A model generated the notes under the pieces. It saw only the letters and a list, made by a program, of their open reading frames with translations. It did no database searches and had not been told where the DNA came from. The translations under genes were made by a program, and so were the position numbers. Below are positions 6,301-56,929 of a stretch of DNA of 64,000 bases, piece after piece. Positions within the stretch are counted from its first letter, which is position 1; each line of letters starts with the position of its first letter. Origin of the DNA: Gammaproteobacteria bacterium (GTDB lineage Bacteria > Pseudomonadota > Gammaproteobacteria > JAADGQ01); NCBI GenBank assembly GCA_021648145.1, contig JAKITI010000002.1, forward strand, positions 62,001 to 126,000, read 5' to 3'.

Positions 6301-7185
6301 ATGTCAGTAATGCTAAGTAATTTTTTGGAGATGCTCTGGCTGGAGTGTGGTTTGAGTGAAAATACGATAGATTCCTATCATTCAGATCTAAGGTCTTTTT
6401 CAGGCTGGCTTGAAAAAAAAGGAACTGCAATTGAATATGCAGATAAAGCGACTTTACTGAGCTATTTAAATGAATGTCTAAAATGCGGAAAGAGTGCTCG
6501 TAGTACTGCGCGACTCATCACAACTCTTCGACGTTTCTATCAATATTTATTACGAGAGTCTGTGATTACTACAGACCCAAGTCTGCATCTTGTTTTGCCA
6601 AAAATAAGTCCGTTATTACCTAAGGTTTTGACAGAACAAGAAGTAGAAAAATTACTTGCGGCTCCAGATGAACATGACTTAATCGGCATAAGGGATCAAG
6701 CAATGATTGAGTTGATGTATGCGGGTGGTTTACGTGTGACAGAGCTTGTAACGCTGAATGTTGCTAATTGTAATTTACATCAAGGAGTTTTGCGTATTAA
6801 TGGTAAAGGAGCCAAAGAACGTCTTGTGCCGATTGGTGAAGAGGCGGTTAATCGTGTTGACCACTATCTCAAAGAAGTACGCCCACAATTATTAAAGAAA
6901 AATAGATCGGAAAATATTTTTGTGACAAAACGTGGAACCCGTGTATCGCGCCAAGAATTTTGGGTCTTAATTAAAAATTATGCACTGCAAGCGGGTATCT
7001 CTAAAACAATATCACCACATACACTGCGTCATAGTTTTGCGACTCATCTATTGAATCACGGTGCAGATTTGCGTGTGTTGCAGATGTTGCTTGGGCATAG
7101 TACGCTTTCAACGACACAGATTTATACACATATTTCCAGTGAACGTATAAAAAAATTTTATGTCCAACATCATCCGCGCGGCTAA
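6301..7185 (+). CDS. xerD: Site-specific tyrosine recombinase XerD
   Basis: This 294-residue protein resembles E. coli XerD along its length, from NFLEMLWLECGLSENTIDSY to the terminal QHHPRG. The catalytic residues are R145 (GGLRVTEL), H240 and R243 (SPHTLRHSF), H266 (LLGHSTLS) and nucleophile Y275 (TQIYTHI). With XerC it resolves chromosome dimers at dif under FtsK control. The followed-by-dsbC order is the usual gammaproteobacterial one, so this is the housekeeping enzyme and not an integron or phage integrase. The ATG at 6301 abuts the T run of the terminator and has no ribosome binding site; an ATG at 6310 is the alternative. Confidence 0.95.
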   Translation: MSVMLSNFLEMLWLECGLSENTIDSYHSDLRSFSGWLEKKGTAIEYADKATLLSYLNECLKCGKSARSTARLITTLRRFYQYLLRESVITTDPSLHLVLPKISPLLPKVLTEQEVEKLLAAPDEHDLIGIRDQAMIELMYAGGLRVTELVTLNVANCNLHQGVLRINGKGAKERLVPIGEEAVNRVDHYLKEVRPQLLKKNRSENIFVTKRGTRVSRQEFWVLIKNYALQAGISKTISPHTLRHSFATHLLNHGADLRVLQMLLGHSTLSTTQIYTHISSERIKKFYVQHHPRG

Positions 7186-7210
7186 TAAATATAAACGAAG
7201 AGAGAGTGCT

Positions 7211-7954
7211 ATGTATAAACAGCTTTTGAGTTGCCTGATTATTTTTTCACTTGTTGCTGGGTCATCAATACTTTTTGCAGCAGAAACAAACGAAATAAAA
7301 AAAATTAACAGCGCTCTGAATAAATTTTCACCTGGTTTGAGTGCTGATGCTATTACAGAATCCCCAGTTTCAGGAATTTATGAAGTCGAGGTCGGCTCTG
7401 AAATAATGTACATTTCCGGCGATGGAAACTTTATGTTTCAAGGTGATTTGATTGATCTAAATCAAATGAGTAATTTGACAGAAACTCGTCGTGAAAAGTC
7501 CAGAGCTAAATTAATTGCTAACATAAAAGAAGATGAGATGATTATTTTCGCGCCTGAAAAAACCAAGCATACGGTCACTATTTTTACAGATATTGATTGT
7601 GGTTATTGCCGAAAGCTGCATAGAGAGATGGATGATTATAATAAATTGGGTATTGCTGTCCGTTATCTGGCCTACCCTCGCTCTGGCGTAGGGACTGAAT
7701 CTTATTTGAAATCTGTTACTGTCTGGTGTGCTGATGATCGTAAATCAGCAATGACAGCTGCAAAATTAGGTAAAAAACTTGAAACTAATAACTGTGACAA
7801 TCACCCAGTGAAAAAGCACATGGAATTAGGAGAGGTGGTCGGTGTGCGTGGTACACCAAGTATGGTTTTATCTGATGGGACTTTTATTCCAGGTTATGTA
7901 CCTGCCGAGCGGTTATATAAAGTATTGGAAATGAGTGCAGCTGCTGTTAAATAA
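7211..7954 (+). CDS. dsbC: Periplasmic thiol:disulfide isomerase DsbC
   Basis: This 247-residue protein starts at the ATG at 7211, behind GAAGAGAGAG. The frame continues upstream into xerD, but only this start gives a signal peptide (hydrophobic core about 5-22, likely cut near FA-AET). An N-terminal dimerisation domain is followed by a thioredoxin fold with the CGYC active site (C130, C133) and the cis-proline loop RGTPSMVL. A second cysteine pair (WCADD, NNCDNH) fits the structural disulfide of DsbC. It repairs wrong disulfides and is kept reduced by DsbD. It lies 25 bases after xerD. Confidence 0.95.
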   Translation: MYKQLLSCLIIFSLVAGSSILFAAETNEIKKINSALNKFSPGLSADAITESPVSGIYEVEVGSEIMYISGDGNFMFQGDLIDLNQMSNLTETRREKSRAKLIANIKEDEMIIFAPEKTKHTVTIFTDIDCGYCRKLHREMDDYNKLGIAVRYLAYPRSGVGTESYLKSVTVWCADDRKSAMTAAKLGKKLETNNCDNHPVKKHMELGEVVGVRGTPSMVLSDGTFIPGYVPAERLYKVLEMSAAAVK

Positions 7955-8153: not shown

Positions 8154-10160
8154 ATGGCAGGGGTATCCTCAATAATAGGTCGCTTTTCAGTACGTACGAA
8201 AATCAACCTAATTGTGACATTAATTTTTGTCAGTGTTGTTATGTTAGTGACTATTTTTACGATGCAGCGTACGGAAGAGCGTGTATTGGAGTTAGTGACT
8301 GATCATACAAAAAGCATTTCAAATTTTTATTTCGATAGTTTAAATACCATGATGTTGACCGACACCATGGATCAACGTTCTATTTTGCGTAAAAAAATCC
8401 TGCAAGACCCTGATGTTTTAGAAGCTCGAGTTGTGCGTGGTCAAACGATCATTGATCAGTATGGCCCTGGTTTACCAGAAGAACATCCTGTCGATGAGTA
8501 TGATCGGCGCGGACTGTTGGGTGAAGAAATTATGTTCACGGAGCATCGTAATAGTGGCCGTGTGCTAACCGTCTTGACACCTATTCGAGCCACAAGTGAT
8601 GGTGACACCAATTGCCTGGCTTGCCATAACGTACCTACTGGTACTGTGAATGGATTAGTTAGAGTGAGCTATTCACTTGCTGATATTGATGAAAAAGTGA
8701 CTCAGGAGATGTGGACTGCAGCGTTTGCAAATTTACTATTGATGGTTTTAGGTTTGTTTTTGGCCAATTTTTTATTACGCCGCTGGATTTCAGAGCCTCT
8801 TTCAAATTTAATTAAAGTCGTTAAACGTCGTGCCAATGGAGATAATAGTGCCAGAGCCATTGTGACGAGCTCTGATGAAGTCGGGCGGCTTGGTTTGGCT
8901 TTGAATGCCATGTCCGACAAATTAAATGATAGTTTCAAACGTGAACAAGAAGTTGCACAAGAGTTACGCCATAAAGTTGATGTATTGCTTAAAGTAGTGA
9001 GCAGAGCCGCTAAAGGTGATTTAGAGACATCTGTTTCTATATCACGGGAAGGTGCTATTGGTGAATTAGGTGCAGGGCTGGAAGCCATGTTGGGCAATTT
9101 GCGTACATTGATGGATGAAAGGCGTACCGCAGTTGAAGAGCTAAAAGAAAAAGTCGGAGCAATATTGGATGTTGTTACAAAAGCAGCAGAAGGCGATTTG
9201 ACTGGAAAAATAACGGTCAATGGAACGGATAGTATTGGCCAGTTAGCGATGGGTGTTCAGCGTATGGTTGATCGTTTGAATGCATTGGTGACACAGGTGC
9301 AGCAATCTGGAATTAAAGTGACTTCATCGGCAACACAAATAGCCGCAACGGCTAAACAGCAAGAGGCAACACTCACTGAGCAGGCCGCGACGATTAATGA
9401 AATTGTTGCGACAGCAACAGAAATTTCAGCAACAAACAAAGATCTTGTTTTAACTATGGATGAAGTCTCTTCTGTTTCGGAGCAAACTGCAACGGCCGCA
9501 AGTAGTGGACAAGAGGGGTTGGCTAAAATGGAAGAGACAATGCGCCAAGTCGTTAATGCCTCAGGGACAATTGCAAATAAACTAGAAGTGCTAAATGAAA
9601 AAGCGAATAACATTAACACCGTTGTTACCACAATTACTAAAGTAGCCGATCAAACAAACCTGTTATCCCTCAATGCCGCAATTGAAGCAGAAAAAGCAGG
9701 TGAATATGGTGTGGGTTTTGCAGTTGTAGCAACTGAAATTCGGCGGTTGGCTGACCAAACTGCTGGAGCCACTCTAGATATTGAGCAGATGGTGAAAGAA
9801 GTTCAAACTGCCGTTTCTGCAGGCGTTATGAGTGTGGATAAATTTTCAAAAGAGGTACAAAACAGCGTCGAAGTTGTAAGCCATGTAGGGCAAGATCTAA
9901 CGCAAATTATTGAACAAGTTCAAGCGTTGAGTCCAAGATTTGAAAGTGTGCATGAGGGGATGCAATTTCAGGCCCAAGGGGCTGAGCAGATTAAGCAAGC
10001 CATCGTGCAGTTAAGCAGTGCGGCCCAACAAACCGTTGAATCACTTCATCAGTCTAACTCATCAATTGATCATTTGAATGATGCTGCGCAGGGCTTGCAA
10101 CAGGGTGTGAGCCAATTTAAAGTATTAAGTATTCATACAAAAGAATCAGAGGCGAATTAG
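8154..10160 (+). CDS. wspA: Methyl-accepting chemoreceptor of a Wsp-type system with a CxxCH sensor domain
   Basis: This 668-residue receptor has TM1 at about 17-36, a periplasmic domain, and TM2 at about 187-208. HAMP and further HAMP-like repeats follow (about 209-385), then a cytoplasmic signalling hairpin with ADQTNLLSLNAAIEAEKAGE. The periplasmic domain ends in CLACH (C154, C157, H158), a CxxCH c-type haem attachment motif, just before TM2. It heads a seven-gene run in exact wspABCDEFR order. In Pseudomonas, WspA senses surface contact and drives WspE to phosphorylate WspR. Here the CxxCH suggests a haem-based cue (redox, O2 or NO), which is inference. The wsp assignment rests on gene order. 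Confidence 0.9.
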   Translation: MAGVSSIIGRFSVRTKINLIVTLIFVSVVMLVTIFTMQRTEERVLELVTDHTKSISNFYFDSLNTMMLTDTMDQRSILRKKILQDPDVLEARVVRGQTIIDQYGPGLPEEHPVDEYDRRGLLGEEIMFTEHRNSGRVLTVLTPIRATSDGDTNCLACHNVPTGTVNGLVRVSYSLADIDEKVTQEMWTAAFANLLLMVLGLFLANFLLRRWISEPLSNLIKVVKRRANGDNSARAIVTSSDEVGRLGLALNAMSDKLNDSFKREQEVAQELRHKVDVLLKVVSRAAKGDLETSVSISREGAIGELGAGLEAMLGNLRTLMDERRTAVEELKEKVGAILDVVTKAAEGDLTGKITVNGTDSIGQLAMGVQRMVDRLNALVTQVQQSGIKVTSSATQIAATAKQQEATLTEQAATINEIVATATEISATNKDLVLTMDEVSSVSEQTATAASSGQEGLAKMEETMRQVVNASGTIANKLEVLNEKANNINTVVTTITKVADQTNLLSLNAAIEAEKAGEYGVGFAVVATEIRRLADQTAGATLDIEQMVKEVQTAVSAGVMSVDKFSKEVQNSVEVVSHVGQDLTQIIEQVQALSPRFESVHEGMQFQAQGAEQIKQAIVQLSSAAQQTVESLHQSNSSIDHLNDAAQGLQQGVSQFKVLSIHTKESEAN

Positions 10161-10162
10161 CT

Positions 10163-10654
10163 GTGATGCTTTTACTGATTACGATCGGTAATGAACGTTA
10201 TGGTATTGATGTCTCCCATGTGGTTAAAGTCATTCCGCCCGTTGCGGTTAAAGAAATTCCTTGTAGCCCTGATTACATTGCAGGGCTATTGAACTTTCAT
10301 GGAACCCCTGTCACGGTTGTTGATATTAACTACTTGTATCTACAGCAACCTGTTTCTATCTATTTAGGCTCTAGAATTATTGTTGTTGATTTGATGCACT
10401 CGAAAAAAGAAGAGGGCGCGGAATCTATTTTGTTAGGGGTACTTGCGGAGGGTGTGACGGAGGCGATTCACATTGATGAAAAGTCCTTGGTGAATTCTAA
10501 AATTGATATGGCAGACAGGTCATTTTTGAATCAGGTTGTGATGAATGATAAAGAGATCATTCAATTGGTTAATCTCGAAAATTTGATGCCAGACCAATGG
10601 AAATCTAAAATTTTACAATCACATACTTTATTGCTTCATGAAACTTTAGAATGA
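10163..10654 (+). CDS. wspB: CheW-like coupling protein of the Wsp system
   Basis: This 163-residue single CheW domain (LITIGNERYGIDVSHVVKVI, then YIAGLLNFHGTPVTVVDI) couples the receptor to the CheA-type kinase. The frame starts GTG-ATG at 10163/10166, with AGAGG about 10 bases upstream, so either codon could be used. It begins 2 bases after the receptor stop. It is the first of two CheW-type genes in the operon, matching WspB by position. Confidence 0.88.
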   Translation: MMLLLITIGNERYGIDVSHVVKVIPPVAVKEIPCSPDYIAGLLNFHGTPVTVVDINYLYLQQPVSIYLGSRIIVVDLMHSKKEEGAESILLGVLAEGVTEAIHIDEKSLVNSKIDMADRSFLNQVVMNDKEIIQLVNLENLMPDQWKSKILQSHTLLLHETLE

Positions 10655-10666
10655 TAGTTAATCTAG

Positions 10667-11905
10667 ATGATTTATAAATTAATAGAAACACTATTAAAAG
10701 ACAAAACAGGATTACATAGTGCCTCTATTGGTTCAGAGTCAATAAAAACCAATATTAAGCGGCGTATGGAAGAGTGCTCTATTATTGATGTTTCTGATTA
10801 TTATTCATTTATTAGTAAGTCAATAGATGAATTACAGCTGCTGATTAACGAAACAATGGTGCCTGAAACCTGGTTTTTTCGCGATGATATACCCTTTAAT
10901 TTTTTGAAAAGATTTATCCATAATCAATGGCTTACAGCGGAGAGAAAAAAGAAATTACGCATATTAAATATTCCATGTGCGACAGGAGAAGAGCCATACT
11001 CTGTCGCGATGACGCTACTAGGGTGTGGTATGAAGCCGCATCAGTTTTCAATTGATGCTGTGGATATTAATACAGGGGTTTTAGATTATGCAGAAAAAGG
11101 TCACTATTCGCAGCACTCTTTTCGTGGAAATGTTATTAATCAGTATCAGCACTACTTTAAAAAAGTAGTGAGCAGCTATCAATTGGATGATGCTGTAAAA
11201 AATGCTGTTTCATTCAATTACGGCAATGTTCTTGATGATGATTTCATCAAAAAATCAGGCCGTTATGACATTGTTTTTTGCCGAAATCTATTGATCTACT
11301 TTGATGATAAAACTAAAAAAAAGGTTGTTAATCATCTCAGTCAACTATTAATTGATAATGGCGTGTTGTTTGTTGGTTATGCAGATGTTAGTGCGTTAAT
11401 GAATCAACCCTTTACCCCGGTTTCTTACCCCAGTGCTTTTGCTTTTTATAAACAAGAACCCATTAAATTAAAACCTGTAACTCCGACGATCCAAAAATTT
11501 CCTTCCAATAACTCATATAAAAATTCGTTTGCATCACTGAGGAAAGCTGAAAAATTACAGATAAAAAAAATAAAGGGTGCGTATGTGCTTGAGGATGAGG
11601 AGGTTATCGAGAGTATTCAGAAATTAGCCGATCAAGGTGAGCTGCATGAAGCAAAAATATTATGTCAGCAATTTTTAGAAAAAAACAGTGTTTCTATCTC
11701 TGCTCATTATTTAATGGGGGTGATTCTTGATGTGGAAGGGCTGTGGGCTAAAGCACACGATCTATTTTGTAAAACACTCTATTTAAATCCAAAGCATTAT
11801 GAGGCACTCACTTATTTGGCTATTTATGCGGAGCGACGGGGTGATTCTACAGCGGCTAAAGTGTACCGCTCGCGTGCGACACGTATTGCTGAGAAAAAAG
11901 TATGA
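10667..11905 (+). CDS. wspC: CheR-type methyltransferase with C-terminal TPR repeats
   Basis: This 412-residue protein has a CheR N-domain, then a SAM-binding domain with VPETWFFRD, NIPCATGEEPYSVAM and IVFCRNLLIYFD. About residues 315-412 form TPR-like helices (AKILCQQFLEKNS, AHDLFCKTLYLNPKHYEAL). That CheR-TPR architecture is characteristic of WspC. It methylates glutamates on the receptor for adaptation. Its stop overlaps the next start by four bases (ATGA). Confidence 0.9.
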   Translation: MIYKLIETLLKDKTGLHSASIGSESIKTNIKRRMEECSIIDVSDYYSFISKSIDELQLLINETMVPETWFFRDDIPFNFLKRFIHNQWLTAERKKKLRILNIPCATGEEPYSVAMTLLGCGMKPHQFSIDAVDINTGVLDYAEKGHYSQHSFRGNVINQYQHYFKKVVSSYQLDDAVKNAVSFNYGNVLDDDFIKKSGRYDIVFCRNLLIYFDDKTKKKVVNHLSQLLIDNGVLFVGYADVSALMNQPFTPVSYPSAFAFYKQEPIKLKPVTPTIQKFPSNNSYKNSFASLRKAEKLQIKKIKGAYVLEDEEVIESIQKLADQGELHEAKILCQQFLEKNSVSISAHYLMGVILDVEGLWAKAHDLFCKTLYLNPKHYEALTYLAIYAERRGDSTAAKVYRSRATRIAEKKV

Positions 11906-12618
11906 CTCAGCAATCCAATATGGAAAAAATAGAAAAAAAAGTGAATGATTGTTGGAACCATATTGGTATATGGGGTAGAGAAAAACAACGTTGTTCAGAG
12001 TTAAAAAAGGTAATTCATTGTAGGAATTGTAAGGTTTACTCTAAGGCTGGCCGCCATTTATTGGAGCGCGAGCCCCCCAGCGGTTATCTGGATGAGTTGC
12101 AAAAAGTAATTGCTAAAGAGCATGAAACTGAGGACTATAAAACAGAATCTATTGTTATTTTTCGCTTGGGATATGAGTGGTTATCATTGCCGACAATATT
12201 TTTTAAAGAGGTTATTTGTATGCGTAAAGTGCATACACTACCACATAGAAGGTATGGTAGTTTGAAAGGGCTGGTGAATGTGCATGGGGAACTATTGATA
12301 TGCATTTCACTCGGGCGCTTATTAGGAATAGATAAGCAAGAAAGAGCGGAAGTAAGTGAAAAAAAGGTATATAAACGATTCATTGTTTTTTCCGGTGACG
12401 AGGGACAATATGTATTTCCTGTCAGTGAGATTAAAGGCATTTATCACTACGCGCCCTCAGAAATATATCACGCCCCTTCAACAGCGACATACTGTGCTTC
12501 AAGTTATCTCAAAGGAATGCTGGATTTGCATAGTGAAACAGGAGGCAAAAATATATTTCATGTTGGTTGTCTTGATGGCCAAAAGCTATTGAACTCACTG
12601 AAAAAAGAGGTGCGTTAG
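11902..12618 (+). CDS. wspD: Second CheW-like coupling protein with cysteine-rich N-terminus
   Basis: This 238-residue protein has a CheW domain (about 85-235: IVIFRLGYEWLSLPT, SLKGLVNVHGELLICISL). It is preceded by an N-terminal segment CWNHIGIWG, then C, then HCRNCKVYS. As far as I recall, the same cysteine-rich start is typical of WspD proteins. It overlaps wspC by four bases and ends 4 bases before the kinase gene. Two different CheW proteins are a hallmark of Wsp operons. Confidence 0.87.
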   Translation: MTQQSNMEKIEKKVNDCWNHIGIWGREKQRCSELKKVIHCRNCKVYSKAGRHLLEREPPSGYLDELQKVIAKEHETEDYKTESIVIFRLGYEWLSLPTIFFKEVICMRKVHTLPHRRYGSLKGLVNVHGELLICISLGRLLGIDKQERAEVSEKKVYKRFIVFSGDEGQYVFPVSEIKGIYHYAPSEIYHAPSTATYCASSYLKGMLDLHSETGGKNIFHVGCLDGQKLLNSLKKEVR

Positions 12619-12622
12619 TCTA

Positions 12623-15415
12623 ATGCATGAAGAAGAGTTACATAATTCTTCCATGTTAGACCTGTTCCGTCAGGAAGTGGAGCAACATGCACCCGATATT
12701 AGTAATGGTTTGCTGGAGTTGGAGCAAGGGGAACCATCCTCTGAATGTCTGGAATCTTTGATGCGAGCGGCGCACTCTATTAAAGGAGCGGCTCGTATGG
12801 TTGGAATTAATGAGGTTGTTGATGTTGCTCATCTAATGGAAGACTGTTTTGTAGCCGTTCAGTCAGGCGAGGTGAACCTGGATGAAAAGGATATTGACCT
12901 CTTATTAAATGGCATTGACCTTATTAGCCAGATTTCAGAGTCAAAAATCCCAGCAGACAAATGGGTGGTTGAGCATCAGAGTGAGTATGATGAACTGATG
13001 GTTTGCTTAAGAGCATTGATGGTAAAAAAGGGTGAAATGCTGGAGGAGAGGGTTGCCCTAGAGTCAATACAACCCTTTGAAACACCTGACTCCGAACCTA
13101 ATTCATTACCGAATGAGCTTAGCCTGAGCGATGCATCAATGCTGGAGTTGTTCCAGTTAGAAGTTGAAGAGCACTCCCGTATATTAAGTAGTGGTTTGCT
13201 AGAGTTGGAGCAAGGGCAGTCATCATCTAAGTGTTTAGAGGCTTTGATGCGTGCAGCACACTCTTTAAAGGGTGCTGCACGCATGGTGGGTTTAAATGAA
13301 GTCGTTGATATCGCACATCTGATGGAAGATTGTTTTGTAGCCTTACAGGAGGGCGGTGCTACTCTGGTTGTTGAAGATATTGATGTTTTATTTAAAAGTA
13401 TTGATGCCCTCACTATGCACCTTCAAACACCTGAAAATAAATGGCTGGATAATAATAAAAGTGAGTATGAGACACTGCTGCTTTCTTTGCAGAGTGTCAG
13501 GCAAAAGCTTGTTAGTGAGGAGCAGAGTCATTCACCTGGACTTATTCAAGCCAAGCCTGAAAAAAGAGAGCCTGATCAAGAGGTAAAGCAGCTACACTCT
13601 TTACCAAAAAAAATAAATCCCCCTCCACCTGAAGTGGTGGATGAAGAAGCAGAGGAGGTCACCTCTGTGCTACGGGTGAGCACTGCACAAATTAACCGGC
13701 TCATGGGGTTAACAGGCGAGTCAATTGTGCGAGCACGCTGGTTACGACCTTATGTTGAGTCTATGTCCAGGTTGAAACAACACCATGTCAGGTTAGCCCA
13801 GCGTCTTGATATGTTGTGGAGTGTGGTGAGTAATACGACGAATGATGAAGAAATTTATGAGTTGTTGCGTGATATCCAAAGCAGAGAAGCGGTGTGTCGC
13901 AGAGAGTTAGCAGATCGGATTGCTGCAATGGAAGAGTACGACCGACATGCGACTAACCTTTCTAGCCGATTGCATCAGGCTGTTGTAACAAGTCGTATGC
14001 GTCCATTCTCTGATGGTGTGGAAGGATTTCCACGCATGGTGCGTGATGTTGCTCGTTCATTAAATAAATCAGTTAACTTGGAAATAGAAGGAAAAGCCAC
14101 AAAACTGGATCGGGATATTCTTGAAAAAATTGAAGCGCCCCTGAATCATTTGTTACGTAATGCGGTTGATCACGGTATTGAAATGCCCGAGGTACGAAAA
14201 GCATCAGGAAAGCCTGAAAAAGGAGTTGTACGGCTTTCGGCATTTCATCAGGCGGGAATGTTATCCATCGTCATTGAGGATGATGGGGGTGGAATTGATA
14301 TCGAAAGTTTACGTGCAAAAGTTTTACAGAAGGGAATGGTCGATGAAAGCATGGCCAAAAACCTATCAGAAACTGAATTGTATGATTTTCTGTTTCTACC
14401 CGGCTTTTCAACCAAGCAGGATGTCACAGAAATTTCTGGCCGTGGTGTTGGCATGGACGTGGTTCATGAAGTCGTTCAAAAAATGCGGGGGCAAATTCGT
14501 GTTTCATCACGTTTAGGAGAAGGAACACGCTTTCATATGCAGCTTCCACTGACACTGTCGGTGATTCCATGTTTGCTTGCTTATGTCTCAGAAGAGCCAT
14601 ATGCTTTTCCATTGGCGCGTATAAAACAGATATTCAAGAAGGATAAAAGCGCTATTGAAAAAATTGAAGGGCATCAATTTATCAATATAGAGGGGCGATC
14701 TGTGGGTGTTATCTCTATGGCACAGCTACTTGAATTGCCGGGTGATTTAATATCGAATCAAGAGACGGTTTCAGTTGTTGTTTTAGGCGAAAAGAAGAGT
14801 ATTTACGGATTAGTTGTCGATAGTTTTATTGGAAAGCGGGATTTGGTGGTGCAGCAGATGCCCAGCCAACTCAAAAAAATAAAAGACATCAGTGCTGCCG
14901 CATTAATGGAGGATGGTTCCCCGGTTTTGATCGTGGATGTAGATGATATGTTGTGCTCTATTAATAAGATTGTTAATGGTGGGCAAGTCAGTGCCATCTC
15001 CTCAGAGCGTAGAAATAGAGAGGCAGATGAGCATCTAATTAAGCATGTTTTAGTTGTTGATGATTCGATTACAGTGCGGGAAGTTGAACGTAACCTGTTG
15101 CTTGCATCAGGCTACCGTGTCGATGTTGCTGTAGATGGTATGGATGGCTGGAACATGGTAAACCAAGGCAGCTACGACTTGGTCATCACCGACATTGATA
15201 TGCCAAGAATGGATGGTATTGAATTTGTAAAATATATCAAAGGAAACCCCAACACTGCTCATATTCCAGTGATTGTAGTCTCTTACAAAGATCGAGAAGA
15301 AGATCGGCTTCGTGGTCTGGAGGCGGGTGCTGACTACTATCTGACTAAAGGGAGTTTTCATGATCACAGCTTGCAAGAAGCGGTTCTGGATCTCATTGGT
15401 GAGGCGACAGTATGA
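12623..15415 (+). CDS. wspE: Hybrid CheA-type histidine kinase with two HPt domains and a receiver
   Basis: This 930-residue protein contains, in order, HPt1 with H51 (RAAHSIKGAARM), HPt2 with H213 (RAAHSLKGAARM), a proline-rich linker and a dimerisation region. The CheA ATPase follows (LLRNAVDHGIEMP, IEDDGGGID, SGRGVGMDVV), then a CheW-like domain and a C-terminal receiver (HVLVVDDS, LVITDIDMPRMDG). It should phosphorylate WspR and WspF. Pseudomonas WspE has one HPt; by hand count 54 of 71 residues match between the two copies here, so this is an in-gene duplication. Its stop overlaps wspF by four bases. Confidence 0.92.
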   Translation: MHEEELHNSSMLDLFRQEVEQHAPDISNGLLELEQGEPSSECLESLMRAAHSIKGAARMVGINEVVDVAHLMEDCFVAVQSGEVNLDEKDIDLLLNGIDLISQISESKIPADKWVVEHQSEYDELMVCLRALMVKKGEMLEERVALESIQPFETPDSEPNSLPNELSLSDASMLELFQLEVEEHSRILSSGLLELEQGQSSSKCLEALMRAAHSLKGAARMVGLNEVVDIAHLMEDCFVALQEGGATLVVEDIDVLFKSIDALTMHLQTPENKWLDNNKSEYETLLLSLQSVRQKLVSEEQSHSPGLIQAKPEKREPDQEVKQLHSLPKKINPPPPEVVDEEAEEVTSVLRVSTAQINRLMGLTGESIVRARWLRPYVESMSRLKQHHVRLAQRLDMLWSVVSNTTNDEEIYELLRDIQSREAVCRRELADRIAAMEEYDRHATNLSSRLHQAVVTSRMRPFSDGVEGFPRMVRDVARSLNKSVNLEIEGKATKLDRDILEKIEAPLNHLLRNAVDHGIEMPEVRKASGKPEKGVVRLSAFHQAGMLSIVIEDDGGGIDIESLRAKVLQKGMVDESMAKNLSETELYDFLFLPGFSTKQDVTEISGRGVGMDVVHEVVQKMRGQIRVSSRLGEGTRFHMQLPLTLSVIPCLLAYVSEEPYAFPLARIKQIFKKDKSAIEKIEGHQFINIEGRSVGVISMAQLLELPGDLISNQETVSVVVLGEKKSIYGLVVDSFIGKRDLVVQQMPSQLKKIKDISAAALMEDGSPVLIVDVDDMLCSINKIVNGGQVSAISSERRNREADEHLIKHVLVVDDSITVREVERNLLLASGYRVDVAVDGMDGWNMVNQGSYDLVITDIDMPRMDGIEFVKYIKGNPNTAHIPVIVVSYKDREEDRLRGLEAGADYYLTKGSFHDHSLQEAVLDLIGEATV

Positions 15416-16443
15416 GAATTGCCATCGTCAATGATATGAAAATGGCGGTGGAAAGTTTACGTCGGGTATTAAATTTTTCGGGAAAATATGAAGTGGCATG
15501 GGTGGCATATGATGGGGCTGAAGCAGTCGAGCGATGTCAAAAAAATTGTCCAGACCTGATTCTGATGGATTTAATCATGCCTGTTATGGATGGGGTTCAG
15601 GCAACACGTAAAATTATGCAGTATTCACCCTGTCCAATTTTAGTGGTAACAAGTTCAGTACACCATCATTCGGCGCAAGTCTTTGAAGCGATGGGAGCTG
15701 GAGCTTTGGATGCGGTGAATACGCCTGAGCTTGGTTTGAATGGTGATGGGCAAGGGCGAGATGATCTATTAAAAAAAATTGCAACACTTCAAGTCTTGAT
15801 CAATGCAAAAGATACGCTTCAAGCGAACCCAGCCCGAGTCGTTACAGAAAAGTTTGATGGCTCCAGAGTTAATAATCTTTCTCCATTAATTGTCATTGGT
15901 GCATCTTCGGGAGGGCCACAGGCATTGTTGGAAATATTGTCGGACTTGCCTGAAAACTATAACGCTTCAATTTTAGTGGTTCAGCATGTTGATGCTCAGT
16001 TTGCGGGCGACCTGGCACGTTGGTTAGATTCACAATGTAAAGTTCATGTTCGGCTGGCAAAATGTGGTGATATTCCAATGTCAGGAACAGTTTTGATTGC
16101 GGGAACAGGTGATCATATGATTATGACAGCGGCGGGTAAGCTCAGTTACAGGGCGGAGCCTGTTGATGAAGTTTATCGGCCATCAGTCGATATTTTATTT
16201 AATAGTGTTGTCAAAAATTGGAGATCAGAATTAGTGGGTGTATTACTCACCGGCATGGGACAGGATGGTGCGAAAGGTTTGTTGAATTTACGTAAAAGAG
16301 GTTGTTATACGATTGCACAAAATCGTGAGAGTAGCGCTGTGTATGGTATGCCAAAAGCGGCTATCGAAGCAGGGGCTGCTGTAGATGTATTGCCTGTTGA
16401 AATGATTAGTTCGGCATTAATGAAAAGGAGCAATGGTGGATAA
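15412..16443 (+). CDS. wspF: CheB-type receptor methylesterase with receiver domain
   Basis: This 343-residue protein has an N-terminal receiver (VNDMKMAVESLR, LILMDLIMPVMDG) and a C-terminal methylesterase with the S/H/D triad in IGASSGGPQ, VQHVDAQF and TGMGQDGAKG. It removes receptor methyl groups. In Pseudomonas its loss locks Wsp on and gives wrinkly colonies. It overlaps wspE by four bases and wspR by eleven. Confidence 0.92.
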   Translation: MRIAIVNDMKMAVESLRRVLNFSGKYEVAWVAYDGAEAVERCQKNCPDLILMDLIMPVMDGVQATRKIMQYSPCPILVVTSSVHHHSAQVFEAMGAGALDAVNTPELGLNGDGQGRDDLLKKIATLQVLINAKDTLQANPARVVTEKFDGSRVNNLSPLIVIGASSGGPQALLEILSDLPENYNASILVVQHVDAQFAGDLARWLDSQCKVHVRLAKCGDIPMSGTVLIAGTGDHMIMTAAGKLSYRAEPVDEVYRPSVDILFNSVVKNWRSELVGVLLTGMGQDGAKGLLNLRKRGCYTIAQNRESSAVYGMPKAAIEAGAAVDVLPVEMISSALMKRSNGG

Positions 16444-17404
16444 CAATACGCAAGAGAAGGTGCCTGGGCCGCGAGTTTTTTTAGTGGATGACCAACTGAT
16501 TGTTGCAGAAGGTATCAGGCGTATGCTGGCAGAAGAGAGTGATATTGATTTTCATTACTGTCAGGATTCAACGGATGCGATCAATGCTGCTGAAAAATAC
16601 CAGCCGACAGTCATTCTACAGGATTTGGTGATGCCAGATATTGATGGTATGACGCTGTTACGTCTTCTAAATAAAAGCCCGGCGACATCAAAAGTGCCGG
16701 TGATTGTTCTTTCGAGTAAAGAAGACCCAAAAATAAAAAGTGAGGCTTTTGAAAACAGCGCGGCAGACTACCTGGTTAAACCCCCTGAAAAAATTGAATT
16801 GATTGCTCGGATTCGAGCTCATTCACGTAGCTATATGGCACATCAAGCATTAGATGTGGTGCATAAAGAGTTAAAAGAAAAAAATGCTGAGTTAGAGCGA
16901 ATATCATTAGAAGATGGTTTGACAGGTATATCTAATCGCCGCAGCTTTGATCTATTTTTACAAAAAGAGTGGGATCGTGCCATTCGTGATAAAACAAATA
17001 TTGGACTGGTCATGATCGATATTGATCATTTTAAGGGGTATAACGATCACTATGGGCATCAAGGAGGGGATGATTGTTTGCGTCAAGTGGCCAGTGCGCT
17101 GGCCGAGGTTGTGGGGCGACCTGGAGATATGGTTGCACGCTATGGTGGTGAAGAATTTGTGGTTGTATTGCCCAATACTGATATTCAAGGGGCAGGCTTG
17201 ATTGCAGAAAAATTACGCCAAAAAGTGGAAAATTTAGCTTTGCCGCATAATTATTCGGCAACGGCCAATTATGTGTCAATTAGCTTGGGTGTTGCTGGAG
17301 TGCTGCCTACTGATAGTGTACCTGATGAATTAATTAAGCTGGCAGATAACGCACTGTATGAAGCTAAGGAGTCGGGGCGTAATCGGTATTGTTTGGCAAA
17401 ATAA
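16433..17404 (+). CDS. wspR: Response regulator diguanylate cyclase (REC-GGDEF)
   Basis: This 323-residue protein has a receiver domain (VFLVDDQLIVAEG, ILQDLVMPDIDG), a coiled-coil linker (about 135-160, HKELKEKNAELERIS) and a GGDEF domain. The active motif is GGEEF, and an intact RxxD inhibitory site (RPGD) lies five residues upstream, so it should be an active, product-inhibited cyclase. It makes c-di-GMP when phosphorylated by the Wsp kinase. A good ribosome binding site (AAAGGAG at 16424-16430) lies inside the end of wspF. Confidence 0.93.
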   Translation: MVDNNTQEKVPGPRVFLVDDQLIVAEGIRRMLAEESDIDFHYCQDSTDAINAAEKYQPTVILQDLVMPDIDGMTLLRLLNKSPATSKVPVIVLSSKEDPKIKSEAFENSAADYLVKPPEKIELIARIRAHSRSYMAHQALDVVHKELKEKNAELERISLEDGLTGISNRRSFDLFLQKEWDRAIRDKTNIGLVMIDIDHFKGYNDHYGHQGGDDCLRQVASALAEVVGRPGDMVARYGGEEFVVVLPNTDIQGAGLIAEKLRQKVENLALPHNYSATANYVSISLGVAGVLPTDSVPDELIKLADNALYEAKESGRNRYCLAK

Positions 17405-17442
17405 TCTGTATTGCTAAATACAGAAAGCAATATTGGCTTTTA
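17405..17442. terminator. Hairpins between convergent wspR and the EAL gene
   Basis: A perfect 8-base inverted repeat with a 4-base loop (TCTGTATT/AATACAGA, 17405-17424) starts right after the wspR stop. A weaker AAAGC/GCTTT hairpin and an A/T run follow. This fits a weak bidirectional terminator between two facing genes. Confidence 0.45.
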
Positions 17443-19191
17443 AAAAACGGGGCAGAAATCCTTTTTCTGGTGACCCTCTTCCTTGGTTTCAACTTCAAAT
17501 GATAAACGTCGGCCATCTTGAAGAAGTTTTCTAAATTGACTTTCCGGCAGTGGCTTGCTGAATAAAAAACCTTGGATATGGTCGCACCCTGTATTTTTCA
17601 AAAATAACAGTTGATTATTGGTTTCTACACCTTCAGCAATCACATCAAGTTTCAAACTGCGAGCCATGGCAACAATCAATGAAGTAATGGCTTCATCGTC
17701 GGAGTCAATGGTGAGGTCACGTATAAAAGCACGGTCTATTTTTAATGTATCGATGGGAAAACGTTTTAAATAAGCCAGAGACGAATAACCAATGCCAAAA
17801 TCGTCAATTGCAACTCTGACCCCCATTGCACTGATTGCTTTTAAAGAGTCAATGGTTGTTTGAATGTTATGCATGATCGTACTTTCGGTAATCTCAATCT
17901 CTAGCAGATGAGGTTTTATACCTGCTTTTTGCACGACTTGTTTTATCGTATCCACTATGCCAGGCCTAACAAACTGGCGGCTTGACAGGTTGACTGAAAT
18001 ACGCAAATTTTGAAACGACCCACTGCTTTGCCAATCTTTAAGTTGATTACATGCTGTTTTTAATACCCACTCACCCACTGGAATAATTAAATCAGTCTCT
18101 TCAAGGGTCGGGATAAAATCTGCCGGAGAGACAAGGCCAAGTTTAGGGTGTTGCCATCGTAATAGAGCTTCAGCCCCAAAGATTTTTCCATCACTCAGAT
18201 CAACTTGTGGTTGATAATGGAGTAAAAATTCATTCTTATCTAATGCAAGTCTTAAGCTATTTTCGAGCATCATTCTCTGATAGGACTTTTCATTCATCTC
18301 TATTTTGTAAAATTGATAGCTATTTCGCCCCTCTTCTTTTGCTTTATACATCGCAGCTTCGGCATTACGCTGCAATATAGAGAGCTCTGTTCCATCGGTC
18401 GGATATATGCTGATTCCCGCACTGCTCGTGATGTATATTTCATGGTGCGTTAGATTGAAAGGCTTACTTATATTTTCAAGTAATTTTTTTACGATCTGAT
18501 GAATATCGTCTGCTTTGCCAATACTCTCCAATGTTATTGCAAATATATCACTTGATAGACGTGCAATAGAATCACATTTTCTAAGGCAGTCGGAGAGTCG
18601 CAAGCTGACTTCTTGAAGTACCTGATCACCTGCTTCATGACCCAAAGTCTCATTGATTTTTTTAAATTGATCTAAATCAATGACTACGAGAGCCATCTGT
18701 TTATTGTCTCTTTTGGATCGGGTGATGGCCTGGTGTAGCCTGTCCATAAAAAGGTTGCGGTTCGGGAGCTCGGTGAGATCATCATAATTGGCCAAATGAT
18801 ACAGGCGATTTTCAGCTCGCTTTCTTTCACTGATATCACTGAATGTTATAACTGCGCCCTCAATATTACCACTATTCTTTATAGGGTAGGATGAGTACTC
18901 CACGGGAAATGAGGAGCCATTTTCACGGTACATTTGTTCATCATCAACGGTGCACCCTTGTCCGCTTAAAAATAGGCTGGAAATACGTGATTCATGAAGT
19001 GGAAGGCATTGACCATCCGGTTTTTCCTGGCACATTAATTTAATGATCTCTTTTCCTAAAAGTTCATCTTCTGTGCGTTCCAGCATTTTTTGTGCAGACT
19101 TATTAGCAAAGGTACATTTTCCAGTCGCATCAATAGAGATGATTCCTTTGTCAGTTGAATCAAGTATGAGCTGCATGTTTTCTTCGCTCAA
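17440..19191 (-). CDS. PAS-GGDEF-EAL cyclic-di-GMP phosphodiesterase, cyclase domain degenerate
   Basis: The protein has a PAS domain (about 5-120), a GGDEF-like domain (about 150-310) and an EAL domain (about 330-570). The GGDEF signature is SSDIF, so cyclase activity is probably lost. The EAL domain keeps EALLRWQHP, VNLSSRQF, EITES, DDFGIGYSSL, KIDRAFI and AEGVE, so c-di-GMP hydrolysis is likely. The frame is open to a GTG at 19230, but that has no ribosome binding site. AAGGAG (19203-19198) sits six bases before a TTG at 19191, which I prefer (583 residues). It faces wspR, suggesting opposing control of the same second messenger. Confidence 0.88.
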   Translation of the reverse strand: MSEENMQLILDSTDKGIISIDATGKCTFANKSAQKMLERTEDELLGKEIIKLMCQEKPDGQCLPLHESRISSLFLSGQGCTVDDEQMYRENGSSFPVEYSSYPIKNSGNIEGAVITFSDISERKRAENRLYHLANYDDLTELPNRNLFMDRLHQAITRSKRDNKQMALVVIDLDQFKKINETLGHEAGDQVLQEVSLRLSDCLRKCDSIARLSSDIFAITLESIGKADDIHQIVKKLLENISKPFNLTHHEIYITSSAGISIYPTDGTELSILQRNAEAAMYKAKEEGRNSYQFYKIEMNEKSYQRMMLENSLRLALDKNEFLLHYQPQVDLSDGKIFGAEALLRWQHPKLGLVSPADFIPTLEETDLIIPVGEWVLKTACNQLKDWQSSGSFQNLRISVNLSSRQFVRPGIVDTIKQVVQKAGIKPHLLEIEITESTIMHNIQTTIDSLKAISAMGVRVAIDDFGIGYSSLAYLKRFPIDTLKIDRAFIRDLTIDSDDEAITSLIVAMARSLKLDVIAEGVETNNQLLFLKNTGCDHIQGFLFSKPLPESQFRKLLQDGRRLSFEVETKEEGHQKKDFCPVF

Positions 19192-19300
19192 GGGGGTCTC
19201 CTTCGGGGGCTGCTGCATTGGTATATGCACTTTTGTTTCTTGAGTGTTCCGTCAAGAGGAGTATCGACAAAGGGTAGGAGATCTTTATTATTAATAACTT

Positions 19301-20296
19301 TTAAGTTTGAGCTGAAACCAGTGAAGCTATGGCCTCTATAAAGTCCGGTCTACTATTAAGTGCTGGAATATAATGATATTTTTCACCACCTGACTCAATA
19401 AAATATGCTCTGTTTTCCACAGCAATTTCTTCGAGAGTTTCCAGGCAATCAGCACTGAACCCTGGGCAGACAAGATCAAGGCTTTTGATGCCACTTTGAG
19501 CGAGCTTTTTAAGTGTTTCGTCAGTATAGGGTTTTAGCCATTCTGCTCGGCCAAAGCGTGATTGAAATGTCACAACCCACTGCTCTTTGGGCAGCTTAAG
19601 CTGCTCTGCAACGCTTTGTGCTGTTTCCAGGCACTCATCATAATAGGGGTCGCCCTGAGTGTGGTGGTGTTTGGGGCAACCATGAAAAGAGAGTACTAAT
19701 TTTTCTGCTTGACCGTGTTTTGCCCAATGCTCCTGGATTGAATTGCATAATGCACTGATATATTTGGGGTGGGTGTGGTATCGGCTGATAAATTGCAGGT
19801 GAGGCAGGTTACGCCAACTTTTGAATGTATTCGCGATTTCATCGAAAGTCGATGCCGCTGTTGTGCATGAATGTTGAGGGTATAACGGTAAAACAATAAT
19901 GCGCTTTACTCCATGCTGCCTAAGTTTTTCGAGGGCAGAAGGGATGGATGGATTGCCATAACGCATTCCGAGTTCAACTTTGACTGTATCTCCCAGTTTT
20001 TTTTGCAGCGCATCTTTTTGTGCTTGGGATATGACAAGTAGAGGTGAGCCTTCATCCGTCCATACTGATTTGTAAAGTGCTGCGGAGCGACGCGGACGTG
20101 TACGCAAAATAATGCCGTGCAAGATCAGCCACCAGGGGATGCGTGGTATATCAACAATGCGCGGATCCCATAAAAACTGCTTTAAGTAACGACGTACTGC
20201 TTTAGGGGTGGCCGCATCAGGCGTTCCTAAATTAGTGATTAAAACTCCCACGGATAAATTTTTATTGTGTGTTGAGTTACTATTTATTTTAGTCAT
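19301..20296 (-). CDS. hemH: Ferrochelatase
   Basis: This 331-residue protein has LITNLGTPDAATPKAVRRYL at the N-terminus, GSPLLVISQAQ, and the active-site region LSFHGCPKHHHTQGDPYYDEC with the metal-binding His. It inserts Fe2+ into protoporphyrin IX, the last haem step. It follows rnhA on the minus strand with a 47-base gap. Its presence is consistent with the c-type haem motif in the nearby receptor, but that link is not specific. Confidence 0.96.
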   Translation of the reverse strand: MTKINSNSTHNKNLSVGVLITNLGTPDAATPKAVRRYLKQFLWDPRIVDIPRIPWWLILHGIILRTRPRRSAALYKSVWTDEGSPLLVISQAQKDALQKKLGDTVKVELGMRYGNPSIPSALEKLRQHGVKRIIVLPLYPQHSCTTAASTFDEIANTFKSWRNLPHLQFISRYHTHPKYISALCNSIQEHWAKHGQAEKLVLSFHGCPKHHHTQGDPYYDECLETAQSVAEQLKLPKEQWVVTFQSRFGRAEWLKPYTDETLKKLAQSGIKSLDLVCPGFSADCLETLEEIAVENRAYFIESGGEKYHYIPALNSRPDFIEAIASLVSAQT

Positions 20297-50748: not shown

Positions 50749-51234
50749 TTAATCTTTAATTTTATTGTTAATAAAGAGGGAGTTCATATCGCTGCCCCAT
50801 ATTCTTAATAACTTCCGCACCTCTCCAAGATTAACCTCAGCCGCTGTACTCAACGACTCTCCCAACTCAAATTGATACCCTCGAATACGCAGCATATAAG
50901 CAGGCGGCGCTTCTTTTCCATACGTTTTCCAATAAGCATAAAGCAGCGCTTCAGGAGTCATTGCATGGCTGGTATATGAACAATCTTTACGTGCTGAGAT
51001 TTGTGAATACTGGAAGGGTGCTTCGCAAGACATATCCGCATCAATGAATATAATTTTTTCACGCCCAGTAAGCTCGGTAATATCTTCAACCTGAAGCTGC
51101 ATGTCACAGATGCACTCAACATTTTTAAGTTCCTGAGTTTCTATATAATTGATAAGTTCAGGGCCTAGTGCATCATCACCTCGGCCAGGATTTCCATAAC
51201 CAAAACAGAGAATTTTTTTAGGGGAAGGGGGCAT
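50749..51234 (-). CDS. hoxW: NiFe hydrogenase maturation endopeptidase HoxW
   Basis: This 161-residue protein is read from the ATG at 51234, 7 bases after the hoxH stop. The frame is open to 51375 inside hoxH, but the family starts at KKILCFGYGNPGRGDDALGP. The conserved nickel-binding acidic residues lie in GRGDDALG (near 20) and FIDADMS (near 67). It cleaves the C-terminal tail of HoxH after nickel is inserted. It is the last gene of the hydrogenase run. Confidence 0.9.
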   Translation of the reverse strand: MPPSPKKILCFGYGNPGRGDDALGPELINYIETQELKNVECICDMQLQVEDITELTGREKIIFIDADMSCEAPFQYSQISARKDCSYTSHAMTPEALLYAYWKTYGKEAPPAYMLRIRGYQFELGESLSTAAEVNLGEVRKLLRIWGSDMNSLFINNKIKD

Positions 51235-51241
51235 AGCTGGA

Positions 51242-52720
51242 TTAGCGCTCAATTGTTCCGTCAGAATGTTTAAATAAACGATCAACTTGTTGGCCTGATG
51301 CACCAATGAGTTCAACTTGTAACGGCATTTTCCCCAGTGCGTGTGTTGCACAAGAGAGGCAGGGGTCGTAAGCACGTACCGCGACTTCCAGGTGATTCAG
51401 TAATCCTTCGGTGATTTCGTTACCATCAATATAAGCATCCGCAACGGCGCGTACTGATTCGTTCATTGCTTGATTATTGCTGGTGGTGGATACGATCAGG
51501 TTGGCTTTTTCTACTAAGCCTTCCTCGTTAATAATGTAGTGGTGAAACAGTGTGCCACGTGGTGCTTCAATGACACCGATGCCTTCTTTTCGTTTCTCAT
51601 TACTATGCACCATAAGATCAGTGCCACAAATATCAGGGTCGTGAAGTAGGTCATGAATCGCTTCAGCACAATGCAAGGTTTCAATCATGCGTGCCCAGTG
51701 GTAAGCCAACGTATCCTGAACTAAGCCACCATCAGCAAAAGCACGAAATCTTTTTCTCGCTGCTTCAGCTTGGGGTGTGGAGATAAAGTCACAACTGTTC
51801 AAACGTGCTAATGGGCCCACTCGATACCAGCCGTTCTCTTTGCCCAGTTCGGTAAGAAATGGAAATTTCATGTAGGACCATGGTCGAACTTCTTCACGAA
51901 TGATCTCTTGATAACCACGATAATCAAACTGATCAAATATTTTTTCACCAGTGATTGATGTCGCACGTAGGCCGCCGTGATAAAGCTCCAGCGCACCTTC
52001 CCCATCGACCATGGATAGAAAATGGCTTTGAATGGCTGCAAAATTGTGGTTCTCTGCATGGCTGGTATGGATCTGCTCATTCAGTGTGACGGCTTCTTGC
52101 GTCCAGCTCAGTATGTCATTGATATTTTCCAAAAGCCCATTGCGATCTTCCAGGCTTAAAGCTTTATTCATGCCCCCAGCAATGGCAGCTGTACCATGGA
52201 TACGTTTGCCCGTAATCGCTTTAATAATTTGCTGGCCGTATTTACGAAGTTTAACCCCTTTGAGCGCTAGGTCTGGGTAATCTTCAATAACACCTACGAT
52301 ATTACGATGTGCCAGGTTTGAGCCAAAACCAAACAGAAGATCAGGTGATGAGAGGTGAAAGAAGTGCAGGGCGTGTGATTGTAATACTTGGCCAAAATGC
52401 AGCAGCCGACGCAGTTTTTCCGCTGTTGGTGTCAGTTGCTCGACACCCACAAGCTGGTCAATCGCTTTGGCGGCGGCTAAATGGTGAGAGACTGGACAGA
52501 TGCCACACAAGCGCTGCACGAAAAATGGGACTTCCCAATAGGGTCGCCCTTGGATAAATTTTTCAAAACCACGGAACTCAACAATATGCAAACGTGCTTC
52601 CTGAACGCGACTGTTCTCATCAAGCAATAGTGTGATTTTACCGTGACCCTCAACACGGGTGATAGGATCAATCGCGACACGACGCAGGTTTTGTCTTTTT
52701 TTATTCTCTTTCATACTCAC
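51242..52720 (-). CDS. hoxH: NAD-linked NiFe hydrogenase large subunit HoxH
   Basis: This 492-residue protein has the N-terminal nickel ligands C72 and C75 (RLCGICPVSHH) and the C-terminal ligands C454 and C457 in DPCLSCATH. A 32-residue tail follows H460 and should be removed by HoxW, so this is a precursor that matures normally. It holds the NiFe(CN)2CO centre of the soluble, bidirectional group 3d hydrogenase and works with HoxY. It is 3 bases downstream of hoxY. Confidence 0.95.
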   Translation of the reverse strand: MSMKENKKRQNLRRVAIDPITRVEGHGKITLLLDENSRVQEARLHIVEFRGFEKFIQGRPYWEVPFFVQRLCGICPVSHHLAAAKAIDQLVGVEQLTPTAEKLRRLLHFGQVLQSHALHFFHLSSPDLLFGFGSNLAHRNIVGVIEDYPDLALKGVKLRKYGQQIIKAITGKRIHGTAAIAGGMNKALSLEDRNGLLENINDILSWTQEAVTLNEQIHTSHAENHNFAAIQSHFLSMVDGEGALELYHGGLRATSITGEKIFDQFDYRGYQEIIREEVRPWSYMKFPFLTELGKENGWYRVGPLARLNSCDFISTPQAEAARKRFRAFADGGLVQDTLAYHWARMIETLHCAEAIHDLLHDPDICGTDLMVHSNEKRKEGIGVIEAPRGTLFHHYIINEEGLVEKANLIVSTTSNNQAMNESVRAVADAYIDGNEITEGLLNHLEVAVRAYDPCLSCATHALGKMPLQVELIGASGQQVDRLFKHSDGTIER

Positions 52721-52723
52721 TTC

Positions 52724-53260
52724 CTAATCGTAACGCAGCATCGTTTTTGGTAAAGAGGGTTCACGCCCTTCAATCAGATCACCCAGTACCTTCATAAAAG
52801 CATCAGCTGGGGGTGGGCAACCAGGCAGGTAATAATCTATTTTTACAACTTCATGAATAGGGTGAACTTTATTGAGCAAAAGCGGAACCTCTACATCATT
52901 AGGAATTTGTGGGTTTTCTACGCCTATACCGTTGAGATATGACTCTGCCAAGCACTCTGCTAGTTGGTGATGATTGCGCATGGCAGGCACGCCACCATTG
53001 ATAGAACAGGCTCCGACGGCAATAAGAACTTTACAGTTTGCACGAAACTCTTTGAGCACATGAATATTGTCTGCATTGCATAAACCGCCTTCAACCAAGC
53101 CGATATCACAAATGTCGCAGTGTTTAATATCCGTCAATGGTGAGCGGTTAAACTCGATATGCTCAAGCAGCTCGAAAATTCTTTCATCGATATCAAGAAA
53201 TGACATATGGCAGCCAAAACAGCCCGCGAGGGACGTGGTTGCGATGCGTATTTTATTCAT
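52724..53260 (-). CDS. hoxY: NAD-linked NiFe hydrogenase small subunit HoxY
   Basis: This 178-residue protein has the proximal 4Fe-4S ligands C14 and C17 (AGCFGCHMS), C85 (VGACSINGG) and C148 (LPGCPPPAD). There is no signal peptide, so it is cytoplasmic, as in group 3d enzymes. It passes electrons between HoxH and HoxU. The start overlaps the hoxU stop by eight bases. Confidence 0.94.
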   Translation of the reverse strand: MNKIRIATTSLAGCFGCHMSFLDIDERIFELLEHIEFNRSPLTDIKHCDICDIGLVEGGLCNADNIHVLKEFRANCKVLIAVGACSINGGVPAMRNHHQLAECLAESYLNGIGVENPQIPNDVEVPLLLNKVHPIHEVVKIDYYLPGCPPPADAFMKVLGDLIEGREPSLPKTMLRYD

Positions 53261-55720: not shown

Positions 55721-55762
55721 AATAAAACCATTATCATACTTTTATTAGGTTTGTGTTCCATT

Positions 55763-56923: not shown

Positions 56924-56929
56924 ATTTTA

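Follow-up and report, generated by a model that had tools for sequence, protein, structure and literature searches.

What does a Wsp-type operon respond to when the periplasmic part of its receptor carries a motif for the attachment of c-type haem? The question is raised by a locus in the window, by which I mean the whole stretch of 64,000 nucleotides that was analysed. In Pseudomonas the Wsp cluster serves biofilm signalling and senses contact with a surface. The stimulus of WspA has been described in the c-di-GMP literature as a mystery (PMC8846402), and the sensory domain is the part of WspA with the greatest sequence variation, for which stimuli beyond surface contact have been suggested (Kessler, PMC8552884). 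The initial annotation of the window described a receptor with the motif CLACH at the head of seven genes in the order wspABCDEFR, and proposed that redox state, O2 or NO sets the production of c-di-GMP. On balance I consider it probable that this is a Wsp-type operon whose receptor senses through a covalent periplasmic c-type haem, with control of WspR linked to redox. The features on which the argument turns are collected in Table 1.

Table 1. Features of the haem-Wsp locus and its convergent neighbour, in coordinates of the window. Limits of membrane helices are approximate.
Feature	Coordinates	Strand	Details or basis
wspA-like chemoreceptor	8154..10160	+	668 aa; TM1, predicted periplasmic c-haem domain, TM2, three HAMP-type units, MCP signalling domain (MCPsignal E = 1e-32; HAMP in three stretches)
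TM1 (about residues 17-38), continuing into long first helix	8202..8267	+	sequence and AF2 helix 13-68
Periplasmic sCache_heme-type domain (about residues 39-183), predicted	8268..8702	+	AF2 model, Foldseek, profile alignments
Codon of M67, predicted distal axial haem ligand (equivalent to Met60 of GSU0582/GSU0935)	8352..8354	+	alignment to 3b47
CLACH (C154-H158), predicted c-type haem attachment motif with proximal histidine H158	8613..8627	+	sequence and conservation
TM2 (about residues 184-206)	8703..8771	+	AF2 helix 176-206
First HAMP domain (residues 207-258)	8772..8927	+	domain search; two more HAMP-type units to about base 9311
wspB-like CheW	10163..10654	+	PF01584 E = 5e-18
wspC-like CheR methyltransferase with TPR	10667..11905	+	PF01739 E = 2e-43, and TPR
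wspD-like CheW	11902..12618	+	PF01584 E = 4e-12
wspE-like CheA: two Hpt domains (H51, H213), kinase, CheW, C-terminal REC	12623..15415	+	domain search and motif check
wspF-like CheB methylesterase	15412..16443	+	PF01339 E = 4e-58; NCBIfam PRK12555 above cut-off
wspR-like REC-GGDEF diguanylate cyclase; GGEEF at residue 238, I-site RPGD at 229	16433..17404	+	domains, motifs, 3bre match
PAS-GGDEF-EAL protein, convergent neighbour	17440..19230	-	domain search

The CLACH motif (C154-L155-A156-C157-H158) lies at exactly the bases given for it by the initial annotation, which also placed it just before TM2. It does precede TM2, but not immediately: about 25 residues intervene, among them a beta strand (165-174). 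A CxxCH would be expected by chance about 0.0025 times in a protein of the receptor's length and composition. It is kept in all 25 relatives found by similarity (set A1) and in all 80 receptor loci fetched from named genomes by a domain pattern, which did not include CxxCH and lay in a different part of the domain. Judged by these sequences, the motif is not there by chance. The invariant residues of the 25-sequence alignment are C154, C157, H158, Y59, M67 and M72. Since C154, C157, H158, M67 and much of the rest of the domain are strictly conserved across diverged receptors, the domain appears to be put to use. The receptor of a locus from the same genus, L037, is 91% identical to that of the window.

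The family of the periplasmic domain was approached from several sides. Compared singly, the window receptor matched no sensor domain in Pfam and its periplasmic domain no chain in a search of the PDB; the Geobacter sensors GSU0582 (3b47) and GSU0935 (3b42) were reached by profile and fold searches only. An AF2 model (pLDDT 88, pTM 0.77) has a Cache fold, in which a long helix is followed by a second helix, strand 1, further helices, strand 2, strand 3, a loop (146-164) containing the CxxCH, strand 4 and TM2. In the sCache_heme topology, too, the CxxCH occupies a segment inserted after strand 3 and before strand 4 (PMC12889525). The top Foldseek matches to the model were WalK, the c-haem sensor of GSU0935 (E = 2e-5) and CitA, with Tll0287 lower in the list (0.03). 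TM-scores to the Geobacter domains are low (0.3-0.5) at 14-15% identity, and in the solved Geobacter structures the domains form swapped dimers, which was counted against the assignment to a haem domain. A profile of the 25 sequences runs colinear with GSU0582 over 137 positions, CxxCH upon CxxCH, at an E-value (0.34) that is not significant alone.

Comparison with Pfam families led in the same direction at low scores. The window domain scores 12.7 bits against PF11845, below the gathering cut-off of 24.1. That family is listed for 15 of the 25 relatives, mostly weakly (E up to 10, best 4e-4), and is matched in 9 of 75 relatives at E up to 0.01, while PF21563 (the Mcp40H-20 sensor) is listed for 4 of the 25, again mostly weakly (best E = 2e-5). 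In a single hhalign comparison with 27 PF11845 domains, strands 2-3 and the CxxCH aligned with P = 1.4e-5 and a probability of 80. On the strength of the AF2 topology, the Foldseek and profile matches and the CxxCH together, the domain most likely falls in the sCache_heme fold family, as a divergent subfamily, GSU0582/GSU0935/Tll0287-like, that scores below the Pfam cut-off. With sCache_heme (DUF3365/Tll0287, PF11845; Deshpande 2026 preprint, PMC12889525) it shares the Cache fold, the site of the CxxCH, an extracytoplasmic position and fusion to signalling modules, which in that family include MCPs; it differs from the family as modelled by Pfam in its score and in its conserved YFDSLNTMMLTGTM helix and M67. 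Two more Tll0287-like (PF11845) proteins are encoded in the same genome (G000:C2:219233-219718 and G000:C3:52179-52658, with frames 223 and 569 aa long).

Might CLACH do without haem altogether, as a disulphide, a metal site or an accident? The score of the window domain under the cut-off of the haem family would fit such a view, and so would the DsbC gene (7160-7954) that adjoins the cluster; but dsbC was recognised beside the cluster elsewhere only in the same-genus locus L037, the full CxxCH, H158 included, is kept in 25/25 and 80/80 relatives, and both the position of the motif in the fold and the presence of a Met60 equivalent agree with the haem proteins. I find this alternative scarcely credible. 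(As a functional partner dsbC was dropped, its linkage being confined to L037.) The solved members of the fold family, GSU0582, GSU0935 and Tll0287, carry covalent haem c, and CcmE is encoded in the window's genome, so haem c can probably be made there.

The candidate for the second axial ligand of a c-type haem in this domain is M67. In an ungapped but weak profile alignment (E = 0.34), its column faces M26 of the 3b47 chain; the motif histidine of that chain, residue 109, is His143 (PMC8396549), an offset of 34 that makes M26 the residue known as Met60. Met60 reportedly binds the reduced haem, is released on oxidation and is displaced by CO or NO (PMC8396549). M67 is present in 25 of 25 sequences of set A1, which was not fetched by way of it, and the adjacent M66 varies; the 75-row set A2 was left out of this count because M67 belonged to its fetching pattern. 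From these alignments I infer that M67 would be the distal haem ligand. GSU0582 and GSU0935 thus resemble the window receptor in being MCPs with a periplasmic c-haem sensor (predicted here) and a methionine at the Met60 position; in the literature they are chemotaxis receptors, and their similarity to the window receptor in sequence is remote.

The claimed wspABCDEFR order holds: the seven genes are tightly packed, overlapping or almost abutting. The window's WspR aligns over its full length to WspR of P. aeruginosa (3bre, E = 7e-97) and retains the GGEEF, the RxxD I-site and the REC aspartate, as WspE retains its Hpt histidines and REC aspartate. The content and order of the genes, the CheR with TPR, the CheA with a C-terminal REC and the REC-GGDEF output are those of the Wsp systems of Pseudomonas and Burkholderia (wspABCDEF with wspR or wspH; Kessler 2021, PMC8552884), from which the window differs in the two Hpt domains of WspE. 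Both carry the histidine, and many relatives match only the part of the protein that holds one.

Kessler assigned Wsp by an identity of at least 30% between each protein and known Wsp proteins. The recognised proteins of the window are 28-61% identical to those of the Azoarcus, Cupriavidus and B. cenocepacia clusters. Against Azoarcus (L138) the range is 31-57%, although the alignment of WspA (0.48 of the query) is limited to the cytoplasmic half, and the 28% is that of WspD against B. cenocepacia and Cupriavidus. A more distant likeness is seen in chemosensory cluster 2 of Halomonas titanicae (PMC5907407), a Wsp-like cluster with a diguanylate cyclase, which differs in its gene order, an extra CheY and a cyclase of the form Hpt-REC-REC-GGDEF.

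The receptor differs as well. The initial annotation contrasted it with Pseudomonas WspA, described there as free of such a motif. The receptors of the known alpha- and betaproteobacterial systems do have a different domain, and no CxxCH was found in the Wsp receptors of Azoarcus, Cupriavidus, B. cenocepacia, Variovorax, Mesorhizobium and Novosphingobium. All four receptors that were scanned (Azoarcus, Cupriavidus, Burkholderia and Mesorhizobium) have 4HB_MCP_1 above cut-off, a usual trait of WspA though not the one by which Kessler defines it, and a domain search of the window receptor gave no match to it. Canonical WspA joins 4HB_MCP_1 to one HAMP, whereas the window receptor joins a predicted c-haem sCache-type domain to three HAMP units. 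Other gammaproteobacterial Wsp clusters have other helical or dCache_3-type receptor domains, likewise free of CxxCH. With 4HB, other helical, dCache_3-like and haem receptors all found upon the same core, the core of Wsp evidently stays constant while its sensor changes. Two of the non-haem gammaproteobacterial clusters (L127 and L137) have two tandem receptors ahead of BCDEFR, which in L137 are one dCache_3-like and one unclassified, probably helical. Complete clusters of wspABCDEFR type also occur on plasmids of the alphaproteobacteria Mesorhizobium (pMLb, L142) and Novosphingobium (L143), a system that had been described as exclusive to beta- and gammaproteobacteria. Wsp is also reported from Zetaproteobacteria, in passages of PMC5513912 that do not mention haem in WspA.

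Beyond wspR lies the convergent gene for a PAS-GGDEF-EAL protein, which may be the matching c-di-GMP phosphodiesterase of the system. The same neighbour is found in L037. Relatives with GGDEF-EAL stand upstream of the receptor in L049, L053, L056, L058, L061, L063, L071 and L090, and there they are divergent from the cluster rather than convergent with it. Next comes a ferrochelatase gene (19301-20296, minus strand), 70 bases from the GGDEF-EAL gene and on the same strand, a proximity that is probably incidental; as a functional partner it was dropped, since it is a neighbour in just one other fetched locus. Farther off, at 50749-59073 (minus strand), lie genes for a [NiFe] hydrogenase, together with HypD and one subunit of HoxF/NuoF type; a match to HypF in this group (55763-56923) is confined to the C-terminal HypF domains.

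Looked for in other Wsp operons, as the initial annotation had suggested, the same architecture recurs in dozens of genomes of uncultured bacteria. The complete ABCDEFR order is present in 46 of the 80 fetched loci. In three more, six of the seven genes were recognised, nine keep the order up to the end of the contig, five have the order A-D-E-R and one is rearranged. In six the receptor is shorter and is followed by no Wsp genes, and the contigs of the remaining ten end at or near the receptor. Linkage to wsp genes is therefore seen in 64 of the 70 loci whose downstream genes can be judged (46 complete, 18 partial or rearranged). The five A-D-E-R clusters (L103:10007-16048 and those of L096, L097, L110 and L112) consist of the receptor, one CheW, a CheA-REC and a REC-GGDEF protein; no CheR or CheB was recognised in them (open reading frames were listed for L103 alone), and by gene content they are apparently a Wsp-like system that works without adaptation through methylation.

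A count made from the kinase gave the complementary view. In 369 gammaproteobacterial genomes, 63 WspE-like places scored at E <= 1e-110. At 30 of these a haem receptor precedes the kinase by about 3-6 kb in the same orientation; for four it lies elsewhere or on a different contig, and the other 29 lack one. Far from being an oddity of this one operon, the haem-Wsp arrangement is common among gammaproteobacteria.

A change of periplasmic domain does not have to bring a change of cue, for chimeras of Pseudomonas WspA with the Pct or CtpM domains keep their response to surfaces, and the transmembrane regions are suspected of being the sensing part (PMC8846402). The window receptor might accordingly be mainly a sensor of surfaces or envelope stress, acting through its transmembrane and cytoplasmic parts, with a haem domain that tunes or stabilises it, and the retention of the Wsp core under at least the four kinds of periplasmic domain named above would be in keeping with this. 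Strict conservation of C154, C157, H158, M67 and much of the domain speaks against it, as does the presence of the same domain on shorter receptors (about 543 aa) outside recognised Wsp clusters. I judge it improbable, and take the haem domain to be the likelier input.

How old that input may be was approached with a tree of the WspE core, rooted on three CheA-type outgroup kinases and built without Pseudomonas WspE. Kinases of haem and other Wsp-type clusters group together against the three outgroups (100/99), the outgroup kinase from Halomonas falling outside the Wsp-type kinases. On the best rooted tree the haem label requires three changes, as against 18.6 when labels are shuffled. Two separate non-haem clades sit among the haem clades, the basal branches lack resolution, and the AU test does not reject a single haem clade (p-AU 0.226). 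Names of records from Desulfuromonadales and Acidobacteriota appear inside gammaproteobacterial clades and may reflect transfer or misbinning. It is a tentative suggestion, and one I hold with more doubt than belief, that a c-haem receptor for redox or NO is ancestral in gammaproteobacterial Wsp-type systems and that the surface-sensing 4HB Wsp of betaproteobacteria (and also that of Pseudomonas, to follow Kessler's phylogeny) arose later by a swap of the periplasmic domain.

If the domain does sense through haem, the signal could run as follows. Haem would be attached at C154 and C157 after export, with H158 as proximal ligand and M67, from the first helix, as distal ligand. While the haem is reduced, M67 would sit on the iron in a low-spin complex; oxidation of the haem, or displacement by NO, would release it. 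Release would shift the signalling helices, and the movement would pass through TM2 and the three HAMP units to the tip of the MCP domain, by which the receptor would gate autophosphorylation of WspE through WspB and WspD. WspE would then phosphorylate WspR, c-di-GMP would be made, and WspC and WspF would tune the receptor through methylation and demethylation. If the Geobacter sensors are a guide, it would be the oxidised receptor that signals.

Nitric oxide might be the cue in place of redox poise, binding the haem, displacing M67 and so switching the Wsp output and setting biofilm formation. A signalling-type sCache_heme protein of P. azotoformans is described as having the properties of an NO sensor, with tight binding of NO (koff about 6e-4 per s; PMC12889525). 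In GSU0582 and GSU0935, NO binds to oxidised and reduced haem alike, and Met60 is lost when the form is the reduced one (PMC8396549). The distribution of nitrite reductases tells a different story. Among 59 gammaproteobacterial genomes, with matches scored below 1e-50, NirS is found in 0 of 30 that have haem-Wsp (nor is it in the window's genome) and in 15 of 29 that have other Wsp receptors (Fisher p = 2e-6, uncorrected for kinship); NirK is found in 0 of 30 and 1 of 29, respectively. NnrS belongs to a protein family associated with NO. It is encoded in the window's genome, and in 12 of the 30 haem-Wsp genomes against 25 of the 29 others (again uncorrected for kinship). Since both NirS and NirK are absent from the haem-Wsp genomes, self-made NO from these enzymes is unlikely to be the main cue; NO from outside or by other routes remains a candidate. 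Overall I regard NO as a rather unlikely principal cue, though one to be taken seriously.

Direct sensing of O2, bound to ferrous haem and setting c-di-GMP as in globin-coupled cyclases, is very improbable. DcrA of Desulfovibrio, a c-haem chemoreceptor, reportedly responds to O2 as well as to redox potential (PMC8396549), but the sCache_heme proteins that have been characterised undergo autoxidation and do not hold O2 in a stable complex (PMC12889525), and a methionine as sixth ligand would compete with O2. Oxygen could act indirectly by oxidising the haem, which amounts to a reading of redox. The proposal of a c-haem domain coupled to Wsp and WspR is thus upheld by the fold family, the invariant CxxCH and the linkage in 64 of 70 loci, and by analogy it loses the part in which O2 would be a stably bound ligand. 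The lack of nirS and nirK in haem-Wsp genomes and of a stable oxy complex leads me to put redox poise ahead of NO, and NO ahead of direct O2, and I infer on that footing that redox poise would be the main cue.

The two halves of the system are already known separately: Wsp (PMC8552884), and c-haem Cache domains on MCPs (PMC12889525, PMC8396549). The open-access literature, which leaves most subscription papers outside its coverage, yielded papers on c-haem chemoreceptors and papers on Wsp and none that joins the two, and the text of PMC12889525 names MCP fusions with no mention of Wsp. The finding, to which the frequency of haem-Wsp clusters adds interest, extends the Wsp core beyond the taxa usually listed, brings out an sCache_heme subfamily overlooked by the current Pfam model, and suggests that sensors can be exchanged on a core that serves as a reusable platform. 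Haem-Wsp systems form a large, well-defined class, and since the cofactor chemistry of the domain on their receptors is known, the input becomes directly testable. The reading would tie the decision to attach to the redox state outside the cell or to NO; in cells with haem-Wsp, settling is probably governed by redox state or by some gas, of which nitric oxide is an example.
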